Shown here: one piece after another, positions 31,624 through 56,170 of the stretch
Numbering within the stretch: the stretch's first letter is position 1
Layout of the letters: the number at the start of each line of letters is the position of its first letter
Virus record (IMG/VR): IMGVR_UViG_3300027736_000049
Coordinates: 1 to 60,106 of that record
Length of the DNA stretch: 60,106 nucleotides
Direction: 5' to 3' (one strand)
DNA from: a virus
Program-made: the position numbers and the translations under genes
Notes under the pieces: generated by a model
The model's database searches: none
The model's input: only the letters and a program-made list of their open reading frames with translations
What the model was told of the DNA's origin: nothing

Positions 31624-31806
31624 ATGCTAACAATCGAACAGATAAGGCTTGCCCTGCGAGACCGGAGGATTAGCATGGTCTCCGCCGCGACTGGCTTGCA
31701 TTACAACACCATCAGAGCCTTGCGGGATAATGAAAGCGCCAATCCAAGCTATAAAGTTTTGAAGGCTTTGAGTGACTATTTTGAGGGGGCAAAGCAACAT
31801 GGCTGA
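31624..31806 (+). CDS. Cro/CI-like small repressor
   Basis: A 60-aa protein that is essentially one helix-turn-helix: MLTIEQIRLALRDRRISMVS then ATGLHYNTIRALRDNESANP and a closing helix. It resembles phage Cro-type DNA-binding proteins. No strong ribosome site precedes ATG 31624. Its end overlaps the primase-helicase start by 8 bases. Expected to bind the TTGCAA region just upstream and balance the two early directions. Confidence 0.8.
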   Translation: MLTIEQIRLALRDRRISMVSAATGLHYNTIRALRDNESANPSYKVLKALSDYFEGAKQHG

Positions 31807-33814
31807 TTTGACGGACATTTTAGGTGGCCCGTGGTCCCCGCCAACCGCTGTTAATCTTGGAACCCCAGAGGAACAGTTATCCACAGCTATGTCTGGGTGC
31901 GGCATTTTGCCACCCAAAGAGATCCTGCTAGATGGGAAAGTTCACCGCTTTAACTCAGGCACCAAAGGCTCAGGTGGGCACGGCGACAAGGCTGGCTGGT
32001 ATGTGGCTTTCTCGGACGGCATTCCAGCCGGACGCTTTGGTTGCTGGCGCGCAGGCATCGAATCCACATGGCGAGCCGACATAGGCCGCAAGTTCACCCA
32101 TACCGAAGAAATGGCCCACGTCCGCCGTATGGGCGAGGCCAAAGCCCTCAGAGACGCCGAGAACGCCAGAAAACAGGAAGTCGCCGCCAACACCGTCGAA
32201 GCCATCTGGGTCGACTGCGGTTTTGCTAACGAAGACCATCCTTATCTAAAAACCAAGGGCATCAAGACCCATGGCGCCCGCGTCACAGGTGACGGGCGCC
32301 TAGTCGTCCCCCTGTTCGATCAGGCCGGGAATCTCTCCAGCCTCCAATACATCGCCGTAGATGGCGGCAAGCTCTACCACTCCGGCGCACAGACGGGCTC
32401 TCGCTTCTGGCAAATCGGCACCCTAGACGAGCCCGGCACCCTCTACGTCGCCGAGGGCTTCGCAACCGCCGCGACCATCCACGAAGCCACAAACCGCCCC
32501 TGCATTGTAGCCTACTCCGCCTCCAACCTCGTCCCCGTCACCGGCATCCTGCGCGAGATCCACGGGGCCACGCAGGACATCGTGATCGTGGCCGACAATG
32601 ACGCCTCCGGCGTTGGCCAGCGATACGCTGAGCAGGCGTCGGCCAAGTTCGGGGCTCGCATGGTTATGCCGCCAGAGCCGGGCGATGCCAATGACTACGT
32701 TCAAGCTGGGCACGATCTGGCGGCGCTCTTGTTCCCGCCAAAAGACAATTGGCTAATTCCCGCCGATGACTTCTGCGCCCAGCCCGCGCCTATCTCATGG
32801 CTTGTCAAGCATTGGCTGCAAGACAAAGCCCTGATCATGGTCCACGGCCCTTCCGGCGGCGGCAAAACCTTCGTAGTGCTGGATTGGTGCCTACGCATGG
32901 CGGCGGGCGTTTCAGAATGGGCAGGCCACCGCGTTAGAACGGGAACGGTTGTCTACCTTGCGGGCGAGGGGCATCACGGCCTGCGGGGGCGCGTAGCCGC
33001 TTGGAAAGTCCACCAGAACGCCGGGCCGCTATCCATGTGGCTCTCCCGCGACGGATGCGATCTCAATACACCGGCTGGCTACATGCGGGTGGTGGATAAC
33101 ATCCGCGCCCTCCCAAATCGGCCCAGCATTATCGTGGTGGATACCTTGCACCGCTTCCTGCTCGGTGACGAAAACTCCGCCCAAGACGCGAAGACCATGC
33201 TCGACGCCTGCGGGGCGCTGATGGCGGAGTTTGAGTGTTCGGTCTTGCTTGTCCACCATACTGGCGTCAGCGAAGAGGCCCAGCATAGGGCGCGTGGCTC
33301 ATCGGCATGGCGGGGGGCTCTGGACATCGAGATCAGTATCGTCCCCGGCAAGGACGACCAACCCATGTCGATCATCCAGCGCAAGTCCAAGGACAGCGAG
33401 CTGGCAGACCCGGTTTATGCCGAGCTTACGTCTGTGACGATACCCGGTTGGTTTGACGAGGACGAGCAGCCAGTCACGAGCGCGGTCGTGAGCCTCGTGG
33501 AGGCCCCCGTGGTGGCTAAGAAGGAGAGTAAAGTTGAGGGGCTGCGTAAGCAATTTGTAGCCGCTTGGTATGACTCAAAGGCTGAGGAACGCGAGGGGTT
33601 GCCTTATGTGAGCCGGTCAGCTTTGAAGCACTTTCTGGTGGCCAATTTGAATTGTAGCGAGGCGACAGCGGACAAGAAGCTGAAGCCGGGGTCAGCGGAC
33701 CAGCTTATTGGTGCGCTCTTAATTGCAGAAATTATCAGCCCATTTGAGAATGGGTGGATCGTTAGTAATGAAGTTTGCGCATCTGCCATGTTGATGGACA
33801 AGAATAAAAGGTAA
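31799..33814 (+). CDS. Primase-helicase (Toprim plus RepA-type hexameric helicase)
   Basis: A 671-aa protein; GAGGGGG precedes ATG 31799. The N-terminal part (to about residue 200) precedes a Toprim domain with LYVAEGFATAATI (about 213-226) and IVIVADNDASG (about 260-271). A RecA-like helicase follows: Walker A GPSGGGKT at 350-357, VVYLAGEGHHG, Walker B SIIVVDTLHRF, then LLVHHTG and ARGSSAWRGA. The C-terminal 100 residues may be a winged-helix adaptor. With no phage DNA polymerase visible, it likely loads the host replicase. Confidence 0.92.
   Translation: MADLTDILGGPWSPPTAVNLGTPEEQLSTAMSGCGILPPKEILLDGKVHRFNSGTKGSGGHGDKAGWYVAFSDGIPAGRFGCWRAGIESTWRADIGRKFTHTEEMAHVRRMGEAKALRDAENARKQEVAANTVEAIWVDCGFANEDHPYLKTKGIKTHGARVTGDGRLVVPLFDQAGNLSSLQYIAVDGGKLYHSGAQTGSRFWQIGTLDEPGTLYVAEGFATAATIHEATNRPCIVAYSASNLVPVTGILREIHGATQDIVIVADNDASGVGQRYAEQASAKFGARMVMPPEPGDANDYVQAGHDLAALLFPPKDNWLIPADDFCAQPAPISWLVKHWLQDKALIMVHGPSGGGKTFVVLDWCLRMAAGVSEWAGHRVRTGTVVYLAGEGHHGLRGRVAAWKVHQNAGPLSMWLSRDGCDLNTPAGYMRVVDNIRALPNRPSIIVVDTLHRFLLGDENSAQDAKTMLDACGALMAEFECSVLLVHHTGVSEEAQHRARGSSAWRGALDIEISIVPGKDDQPMSIIQRKSKDSELADPVYAELTSVTIPGWFDEDEQPVTSAVVSLVEAPVVAKKESKVEGLRKQFVAAWYDSKAEEREGLPYVSRSALKHFLVANLNCSEATADKKLKPGSADQLIGALLIAEIISPFENGWIVSNEVCASAMLMDKNKR
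31877..31885 (+). promoter_or_regulatory. Perfect DnaA-box sequence
   Basis: TTATCCACA, the consensus DnaA box, lies inside the 5' end of the primase-helicase gene. Further exact copies on the opposite strand are at 3483-3491, 20542-20550 and 37316-37324, with a one-mismatch copy at 20512-20520. Because the phage encodes a DnaA domain-IV protein, these may be functional, though all lie in coding sequence. Confidence 0.4.
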
Positions 33815-33827
33815 TTGCCATGCTCAA

Positions 33828-34015
33828 CCGTACCGTACCGTACTTTTGGCGTACTAGTACGTTTTGGTACGTTTTTGGCTTATTGCTTAGCTCAACCGTA
33901 CCGGCGTACCGTACCGTACTTTTGCGTACTGGTACGTTTAGGGGCAAAACGCCCGAAAACGTACCGTACCGTACTCCCCCCCTTTAGGGGGGGTACGGCG
34001 GTACGGTCGGTGCGG
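33828..34015. repeat. GTAC-rich array, candidate replication origin
   Basis: Seventeen GTAC tetramers lie between 33830 and 34004, where fewer than one is expected by chance. Many are in CCGTA repeats of period 5 (33829-33843, 33909-33919, 33960-33974). Two longer direct copies begin CTCAACCGTACC at 33823 and 33891. The last part contains C7-TTTA-G7 (33975-33992), flanked by GTACCGTAC and TACGGCGGTACGG, so it can fold into one long hairpin; GGGC-AAAAC-GCCC at 33942-33954 is a smaller one. The array directly follows the primase-helicase. An 80-codon frame through it is repeat-driven and not listed as a gene. Confidence 0.75.
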
Positions 34016-34030
34016 CGGATAGTCCGGACG

Positions 34031-34055
34031 AAAAAACCAGCCCGGAGGCTGGTTT
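34031..34055 (-). terminator. Rho-independent terminator of the leftward methyltransferase operon
   Basis: On the minus strand AAACCAGCC, loop TCCG, GGCTGGTTT make a perfect 9-pair stem that runs into TTTTTT. It sits 9 bases after the stop of the HTH gene at 34064 and just before the GTAC array. It would keep this transcript from crossing the array. Confidence 0.85.
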
Positions 34056-34063
34056 GAAGTTGG

Positions 34064-34264
34064 TCACTTGTTCAACTGCTGGGCCAGCCAGTCAATGTCG
34101 ATCTTGCCCGCCTCTAGGGCCGCCAGCAGGATCAGGACGGCCCGTGGTGGCTCCCAGCCACCCGCCCGCCATGTCTCCACCGTGCGGACCCCGCACCCCG
34201 TCAGGAGGGCTAGGTCCGCCACAGTGAGGCCGAGCCGGATCATCTGGGCCTTGATGGGGGTCAT
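34064..34264 (-). CDS. Small helix-turn-helix protein
   Basis: A 66-aa protein starting MTPIKAQMIRLGLTVADLAL, ribosome site GGAGA. LGLTVADLALLTG and VRTVETWRAGG form a compact HTH resembling XRE or YdaS types. Its start overlaps the methyltransferase stop (ATGA). Likely a regulator, possibly of the palindromic promoters that drive this operon. Confidence 0.78.
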   Translation of the reverse strand: MTPIKAQMIRLGLTVADLALLTGCGVRTVETWRAGGWEPPRAVLILLAALEAGKIDIDWLAQQLNK

Positions 34265-35292
34265 GGCTGGGTCTCCATAAATGCTTTGATCACTTCTGCC
34301 GCGACTTGCGGGACGATGGCGTTGCCGTAGGCGCGCAGGCGTCCCACGCGGTTGGATACCCCATGAGCCAGCAGACAAATGCTGGGTTCAACGCGCCGGG
34401 CCTTGCCGTCGGCTCCGGTGAGCCAGATGTGGTCGTCCCAGAATGAACCAGCGCACCCAGATCCGTTATCGCTCCGTCCGGTTTTCGCCCCTTCCTTTTC
34501 AGGAAGCTCTCCCCGTCTCCCCCGCATGGCTGAGACGTTGGCGTTGGCCATGTGGACAGGTTGTGCATTACCGTGCTGGGAAGGTCGTCCAGACGGCCCT
34601 TGCGAGCCATCTCCTTCACGCATCCCTCCGGCGTTCGAGATCCTTTGTCCCCGTCCACTGAGCGTGGTGTCGGCCATGTGGTCCGCGCCAGCTCCGGCAG
34701 TGTCCACCCGGCCCTGTGAGCCGCCTCCGGCGTTCTGTTGCCCGTCCTGCCGTTCCCGTTCTTCTCGTCCGATGACCGAGGCGTTGGCCACGTCGAGTGC
34801 GACCCAGTAGAGGCGCTGGCGAATGTGCGGGGCGTTGACCGCGAGAGCCGGAATATCTGCCGCCCGGCTGGAGTAGCCAGTTCCTTCCAGATTAGATTGA
34901 ACTCCATCGAACCATCCGTACCCAGCCTTTCCCGCAACTTGCTCCCCCATGACGACAGGGGGCCTGACGGCGGCGATGAGGCGATGGAAGTGGGGCCACA
35001 GGTGCCTCGGATCGTCTGTACCGGCTCCTTTGCCCGCGACGGAGAACGGCTGGCACGGACAGCTCCCCGTCCAGATTGGCCGGTCGTCTGGCCATCCGGC
35101 GAGTCGGAGGGCGTGTCCCCATCCGCCGATCCCGGCGAAAAAGTGGCACTGGGTGAAGCCTCTGAGGTCATCAGGTGCCACATCGACAATTGACCGGGTA
35201 TCGACTTCGCCATCGGGTATCAATCCTGCTTTGATCAAGTTGCGTAGCCATTGGGCTGCGTAGGGTTCGATCTCGTTGTAGTAGGAGGTCAT
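34261..35292 (-). CDS. DNA (cytosine-5) methyltransferase
   Basis: A 343-aa protein. Motif I FFAGIGGWGHALRLAGW (51-67) binds AdoMet. Motif IV GSCPCQPFS has catalytic C80. Motif VI is GEQV where ENV is usual; APHIRQRLYWV is motif VIII; motif X is RLRAYGNAIVPQVA near the end. The segment between VIII and IX is a low-complexity repeat with VANA, MADT and MANAN. It probably methylates phage DNA against restriction; no restriction partner is seen. A second long frame overlaps most of it. Confidence 0.92.
   Translation of the reverse strand: MTSYYNEIEPYAAQWLRNLIKAGLIPDGEVDTRSIVDVAPDDLRGFTQCHFFAGIGGWGHALRLAGWPDDRPIWTGSCPCQPFSVAGKGAGTDDPRHLWPHFHRLIAAVRPPVVMGEQVAGKAGYGWFDGVQSNLEGTGYSSRAADIPALAVNAPHIRQRLYWVALDVANASVIGREERERQDGQQNAGGGSQGRVDTAGAGADHMADTTLSGRGQRISNAGGMREGDGSQGPSGRPSQHGNAQPVHMANANVSAMRGRRGELPEKEGAKTGRSDNGSGCAGSFWDDHIWLTGADGKARRVEPSICLLAHGVSNRVGRLRAYGNAIVPQVAAEVIKAFMETQP
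34290..35213 (-). CDS. Overprinted frame within methyltransferase (WPTP-repeat protein)
   Basis: A 307-codon frame on the same strand as the methyltransferase, in a different phase, covering about 90% of it without a stop. It encodes KLRERLGTDGSMEFNLIWKE, three TWPTP repeats with RTPE/G, and an end NPAFVCWLMGYP...TATPSSRKSR. I recall this series of motifs from many annotated phage proteins, so the frame seems conserved in its own right. It could be a real overlapping gene or a shadow preserved by methyltransferase conservation. No strong ribosome site at the first ATG. Confidence 0.4.
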   Translation of the reverse strand: MAKSIPGQLSMWHLMTSEASPSATFSPGSADGDTPSDSPDGQTTGQSGRGAVRASRSPSRAKEPVQTIRGTCGPTSIASSPPSGPLSSWGSKLRERLGTDGSMEFNLIWKELATPAGRQIFRLSRSTPRTFASASTGSHSTWPTPRSSDEKNGNGRTGNRTPEAAHRAGWTLPELARTTWPTPRSVDGDKGSRTPEGCVKEMARKGRLDDLPSTVMHNLSTWPTPTSQPCGGDGESFLKRKGRKPDGAITDLGALVHSGTTTSGSPEPTARPGALNPAFVCWLMGYPTAWDACAPTATPSSRKSRQK

Positions 35293-36460: not shown

Positions 36461-36514
36461 GCGGGAATTCGCATATTCGCGGCGATTTTGCGATTTATTT
36501 TGCGATTTATTTTT

Positions 36515-36566
36515 GGGGGCCATTTTGGGGGCTATTTCGGGGAAGTTTCGGGGGGAGTTTTGGGGG
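36515..36566 (+). repeat. Five evenly spaced G-runs (G-quadruplex-type block) before terminase
   Basis: Runs of G are at 36515-36519, 36527-36531, 36539-36542, 36550-36555 and 36562-36566, separated by 7, 7, 7 and 6 bases, giving a near-12-base period. This satisfies the standard G-quadruplex pattern (four or more runs, loops of 7 or less). GCGATTTATTTT-like repeats lie just before (36490-36514). It sits 38 bases before the first late gene and about 155 before the small terminase. The rest of 36461-36603 holds no gene; a late promoter was not identified. Confidence 0.7.

Positions 36567-53452: not shown

Positions 53453-53453
<1 letters not shown>
52719..53453 (+). CDS. Virion protein with N-terminal zinc ribbon
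   Basis: A 244-aa protein. AVCDRCAIW (about 21-29) and VCSNCYDNP (about 52-60) form a C-x2-C...C-x2-C zinc site. From residue 140 a beta domain ([34 protein letters not shown]) resembles baseplate/neck beta modules also seen in the nozzle protein. It lies before the fibre genes, so a fibre-attachment role is plausible. TAATG and TGATG overlaps couple it to both neighbours. Confidence 0.82.

Positions 53454-56170
<2,717 letters not shown>

Follow-up and report, generated by a model that had tools for sequence, protein, structure and literature searches.

Organisation of the locus

The window, that is the whole stretch of DNA analysed, is a virus record of 60,106 bp. An array of short repeated words starts in it directly 3' of the stop codon (33814) of a primase-helicase gene, and the features of this locus are listed below.

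31624 to 31806, + strand: 60-aa Cro/XRE-like HTH protein, first gene of the HTH/primase operon (PHROG transcriptional regulator)
31799 to 33814, + strand: primase-helicase with Toprim primase (Toprim_3), RSF1010-RepA-type helicase (AAA_25) and C-terminal winged helix
33497 to 33811, + strand: C-terminal winged-helix domain, aa 576-680, proposed to be origin-binding (AlphaFold2 pLDDT 85, H-E-H-H-H-E-E-H)
33632 to 33718, + strand: putative word-reading segment, aa 621-649, whose similarity tracks the array word (matched-pair test)
33827 to 34006, + strand: iteron array with the word CGTACC and 17 GTAC cores, the proposed replication origin; layout kept in relatives
33827 to 33843, + strand: first block, three tandem words
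33850 to 33871, no strand: inverted word pair CGTACTAGTACG plus GGTACG, with counterparts CGGACTCAGTCCG in L031 and AACGGAATTCCGTT in L038
33905 to 33936, no strand: second block of three words, then an inverted word pair
33941 to 33954, + strand: conserved spacer GGGGCAAAACGCCC; a GGG+CAA-like motif is present in 62 of 100 arrays and in 13% of shuffles
33960 to 33974, + strand: third block, three tandem words, 5' of the hairpin
33976 to 33993, no strand: hairpin C7-TTTA-G7; stem letters differ between phages, pairing kept
33992 to 34005, - strand: two reversed words (GGTACG n GGTACG) 3' of the hairpin
34010 to 34017, + strand: conserved right-end element GTGCGGCG, at the same position in most relatives
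34034 to 34055, no strand: terminator-like hairpin AAACCAGCC-CGGA-GGCTGGTTT of the leftward operon, outside the proposed origin, separating the array from the leftward genes

The GTAC density of the region was analysed. GTAC occurs 17 times within 33830-34004, while 0.25 occurrences per 177 bp are expected from the rest of the window, which holds 85 GTAC in 59,929 bp and at most 3 in any other 180 bp. This density had been reported by an earlier sequence-only reading, and the other elements described there were also located: a period-5 CCGTA repeat in three blocks (33827-33843, 33905-33919 and 33960-33974), two longer direct copies CGTACCGTACCGTACTTTTG that are identical (33829-33848 and 33905-33924), the C7-TTTA-G7 hairpin, and an insulation from the leftward operon in the form of the hairpin at 34034-34055. 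The same reading had taken every unit to be its own reverse complement. This is true of GTAC, but what is repeated is CGTACC, a directional unit found 7 times forward and 4 times in reverse with three blocks of three words, and most relatives use other words, so that the palindromic core of the unit is incidental. Palindromicity is not essential because non-palindromic words stand in the same layout in relatives, and CGGAAC, GGGTCA, AGGGGG and others in that layout ruled out GTAC self-complementarity as the key feature. Folding of the array region as single-stranded DNA gave a structure far more stable than that of shuffles (z = -5.4).

The primase-helicase matched AAA_25 with E=2.8e-33, and its RepA-like fold was indicated by a match to PDB 1g8y (RSF1010 RepA, E=1.2e-7). 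In this one polypeptide a Toprim primase is combined with an RSF1010-RepA-type helicase and a predicted DNA-binding domain. In the AlphaFold2 model the putative word-reading segment comprises the third (recognition) helix, about residues 630-637, and the loop KPGSADQ following it. The Foldseek search with the winged helix returned a single strong match (E=3e-10), to a viral Prim-Pol protein that has this domain as well, and otherwise weak ones, the majority of them winged-helix regulators; no solved structure matched at E<0.001 in Foldseek, and a sequence search of the PDB with the domain returned chance matches only. In L007, which has a CGTACC array, and in the BFVD entry A0A6J5RWR5 the primase attached to this same winged helix is of the Prim-Pol and not of the Toprim type. 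The module of reader plus proposed origin crosses primase types.

Recurrence of the layout with different words

About 100 distinct viral contigs have the same skeleton 3' of a homologous primase-helicase gene, and the different words in them number about 20. It runs in the order of word blocks, inverted word pair, GGGGCAAAAC-like spacer, three words, hairpin, two reversed words and GGTGCGGCG; in the relatives the hairpin apex is T(TT/AT/TA)A and the right end is TGCGGCG-like. The words across the family are CGTACC, CGGACC, CGGAAC, CGTAAC, GGGTCA, AGGGGG, GGTACA, GGAACA, GGTTCA, GGGACA, GGTACC, GGCCCC, CGCACC, CTAACA, GGGAAA and others. Lack of similar arrays in related genomes had been named in the sequence-only reading as evidence against it; the arrays recur directly 3' of homologous primase-helicases. 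A search of other phages for GTAC-dense blocks had also been suggested there. Among 29 viral contigs with ACCGTACCGTACCGTAC, a GTAC-dense array is present in 19 and follows such a helicase gene in all 19 (18 by protein search, and L002 by reading of the truncated junction), while the remaining 10 have neither GTAC density nor such a helicase gene.

The search from the protein side gave more than 180 further loci, most of them with an array at the same place and a different word. One 5-mer reached at least nine copies in the 300 bp after the gene at 73 of 114 loci, compared to 1.3% of other pieces from the same loci; the nine-copy threshold is quoted because six copies, reached by 23% of other pieces, are weak alone. 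The array is also present in the cultured phages Salicola CGphi29, Idiomarinaceae 1N2-2 and Alteromonas XX1924. A DNA-level search of isolated phages for the array gave no match, which is expected because the words differ. The matches in the genome collection were mainly metagenome-assembled contigs, and the close members there are probably phage contigs binned with bacteria.

An exception to the arrangement is the clade of L171, L183, L197, L164 and relatives, where no word array was detected within the 0.5-4 kb of downstream sequence. The members of this clade have the same primase-helicase with a different C-terminal segment (e.g. LKNKSLRAQIPAK) and a conserved small coiled-coil ORF downstream. 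Full or partial word arrays were also seen at broader RepA-helicase loci with other C-terminal domains (L240, L242, L246, L248 and L249), and arrays after such genes suggest a wider principle. In L249, from the isolate Lysobacter silvestris AM20-91, six GGTCCA words and the hairpin GGGGGTACTACGTACCCCC lie just after a RepA-like helicase gene, whose RepA-type product has a different (HTH) C-terminus; L240, L242 and L248 look similar.

The stem of the central hairpin varies widely in sequence with its pairing kept. The paired cells amounted to 89.8%, and the covariation score was 0.79 against 0.19 for shuffled and at most 0.28 for slid stems, figures that are overstated because the hairpins were selected for pairing and are partly so by construction. 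An unselected comparison, in which a six-base stem with the conserved apex was counted, gave 47 of 100 array regions, 1 of 300 coding pieces and 0 of 500 shuffles.

The protein segment that tracks the word

The relation of the word to each part of the protein was scanned over the whole length in 14-residue stretches, using 100 non-redundant homologues with overall similarity removed (partial r). The scan revealed that word identity strongly tracks residues about 618-649 alone, with a partial r of 0.48 at aa 624-637, while the windows in residues 1-575 gave a mean of -0.01, sd of 0.08 and maximum of 0.16. For pairs with 90-100% core identity the segment was 96% identical if the words agree and 34% if they do not, whereas a control stretch in the same matched pairs showed 89% and 92%, respectively. 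This comparison shows that which word the array carries depends on 30 residues within the predicted winged helix at the C-terminus, and this domain of the primase-helicase is the likely binder of the array. The code does not extend to very distant proteins, since prediction of the word from the nearest segment, with all relatives of core identity >=0.65 excluded, was correct in 0 of 100 cases. In L062 the reader segment predicts GTAAC and the DNA after the gene is unrelated; this contig is possibly chimeric.

The HTH protein upstream was considered as the reader and rejected, its similarity tracking the word weakly (partial r 0.18 versus 0.52 for the primase segment at the same 57 loci). It is nearly the same in L038 (GGAAC) and L051 (AGGGGG), the words of which differ, and this excludes it as the reader.

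The switching of words was followed in close relatives. L075 and L072 have a 100% identical core, and their flanking DNA is 98-100% identical on either side, but the winged helix and the array between differ, which points to a natural exchange of the two as a cassette. Between L039 and L038 the segment differs only by Q to V and SP to AT, and the word changes from GTAAC to GGAAC. The sequence GYPDQ is present in all GGACC members and GS(A/T/P)DQ in the GTACC members of the same clade; the held-out L232, fetched after the rule had been seen, has GYPDQ and eleven copies of CGGACC, as predicted, and L091 has GSPDQ and a CGTACC array beyond an insert. On the tree of the core, comprising about 95 phages, the word class changes at least 37 times. 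In all 6 independent pairs taken from the core tree, V/I versus Q/M/L corresponded to GGAAC(A) versus GTAAC/GGTACA (sign test 0.03), and the YP rule was obeyed in both of 2 cases on its well-supported branches, these residue rules having been chosen on the same data that suggested them, with L232 alone truly held out.

Specificity may be changed by two routes, either a few substitutions in the recognition segment with concerted change of all words, or exchange of the whole cassette of winged helix plus array. The reading towards which the data lean, slightly, is a phage replication system of wide distribution whose origin specificity would reside in an exchangeable cassette, in which the segment and its 5-7 bp word would change together by point substitutions or recombination, often enough to suggest selection against origin sharing with rival phages, satellites or origin-targeting nucleases, and in which the rule of protein-DNA recognition would be partly readable from sequence. 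Precedents for a possible driving force are the origin-directed nuclease of ICP1 (PMC8263062) and decoy origins by which lambda is blocked (PMC4488673). What stands out most is how often, and how readably, the word switches along with its reader; the closest precedent is the swapping of RepA/ori in Vibrio PLE (PMC8263062). In the PLE RepA_N/ori system the DNA-binding domain of the initiator and the origin likewise covary and have been swapped repeatedly, and only cognate initiator/ori pairs replicate (PMC8263062). That system has two known types, iterons of about 30 bp and an unrelated initiator (PMC8263062), whereas about 20 words occur here on one skeleton and switch by few residues as well as by swap.

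The array as a proposed replication origin

The comparison of sequences argues that the array is very probably a phage replication origin of the iteron type, bound by its own primase-helicase. The suggestion of an iteron-type origin or binding array, made in the sequence-only reading, is well supported by the recurrence after homologous primase-helicases and by flanking DnaA boxes in some relatives. DnaA boxes are 55-fold enriched around the arrays, in some subgroups only, with three boxes in 15 loci; no perfect DnaA box was found beside the array of the window. The cumulative GC skew, which had been proposed as a check, has its minimum at 32854, less than 1 kb from the array, but the skew also follows gene direction.

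In the proposed mechanism each winged helix would bind one copy of the word, and the direct and inverted words would gather several subunits on both sides of the central hairpin. The RepA-type hexameric helicase would then assemble at the array and open the DNA there, the hairpin perhaps being extruded or exposed as a single strand. The Toprim primase of the same polypeptide would lay the first primers, after which the host polymerase would take over, and DnaA probably helps in some relatives having DnaA boxes flanking the array.

The covariation of protein and word shows binding specificity and not replication as such. It would therefore also fit an operator at which the winged helix or another phage protein regulates transcription or blocks convergent transcription, with replication starting elsewhere, and the array does lie between convergent genes with a terminator-like hairpin nearby. 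Such an operator is unlikely, however: in all relatives examined the array is at the 3' end of the operon and not at a promoter, it is paired with a replicative helicase-primase, the DNA around the arrays is enriched in DnaA boxes, and P4 crr and the pRN1 origin occupy the same position (PMC4234260). Still less likely is that the region acts as RNA, either as a structured 3' end of the primase mRNA or as a small RNA controlling replication. The strong hairpin with pairing kept under sequence change and the very stable fold are in accordance with RNA, but the directional words change in step with the predicted DNA-binding helix, and an Rfam search gave no match. In the inner six stem positions G-U pairs are almost absent (2 T:G, no G:T), as expected for DNA symmetry, and DNA is therefore favoured over RNA. 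The least probable reading is a packaging (pac/cos) or recombination site, for which the small terminase gene 2.7 kb away in the window would speak; against it, word identity goes with the primase-helicase segment, and at loci where the neighbouring genes differ the array remains beside the primase gene.

The iteron-type origin was compared with known systems. The sequence-only reading knew of no described phage origin of this form, but one of the same general form exists in P4: crr directly follows the alpha gene on its 3' side and has the short repeats TGTTCACC/GGTGAACA in either orientation, and the P4 record annotates it as required in cis for replication. On the best reading the system of the window would function in the manner of the P4 alpha/crr or pRN1 origins, with the phage's primase-helicase itself binding to it. 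In P4 alpha, too, priming and unwinding are done by a single polypeptide, and a homologous Toprim primase domain is present (hhalign 99.4%, 35% identity; EGFATA aligns with EGYATA). P4 alpha binds by a C-terminal winged helix (PMC4234260); the C-terminal domain here showed no detectable sequence similarity to P4 alpha, and the winged helix here is predicted. The two differ in the motor, which is SF3 in P4 and of the RSF1010-RepA type (AAA_25) here. The words here are shorter (5-7 bp) and denser, the central hairpin is of variable sequence, and the word has been switched many times across the family, while P4 also has a separate ori.

Experiments have established that replication of pRN1 requires a stem-loop located 3' of its HTH/primase-helicase operon (PMC4234260). 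Both pRN1 and phage BIP-1 resemble the window in having a small HTH repressor, a primase-helicase with C-terminal winged helix and an origin 3' of the gene, and their stem is conserved in structure, not in sequence (PMC4234260), as it is here. Unlike the Toprim_3 and AAA_25 of the window, pRN1 has an archaeo-eukaryotic primase (prim-pol) and an SF3 helicase, and it is without iterons, which are the main feature here. Membership in the P4 alpha/crr or pRN1 family fails on the helicase motor. The RSF1010 RepA/RepB'/RepC oriV has a RepA-type hexameric helicase and iterons plus hairpins at its origin in common with the window, but its functions reside in three separate proteins, whereas helicase, primase and proposed origin binder are fused here.

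If the proposed reading is true, the replication origin of a large and mostly uncultured phage group would be indicated, together with a natural data set of matched reader/word pairs that includes switches by two or three residues. The evolution of replication-origin specificity would become directly testable and origins would be predictable from the primase-helicase sequence; the question of what drives the frequent switching of words would also be raised.

The window revealed other features besides this locus. A gene resembling a C5-cytosine DNA methylase (34261-35292, - strand; PF00145 partial match) is adjoined by a repressor-like ORF at 34064-34267 (- strand). Tandem repeats ATTTTGCGATTT and TTTTGGGGGCCA at 36485-36566, just before the small terminase gene, are a candidate packaging or regulatory site. 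Collagen-like repeats of the GPT/GAT type (53633-54322) lie inside a 905-aa ORF at 53453-56170, which is probably a tail or fibre protein.
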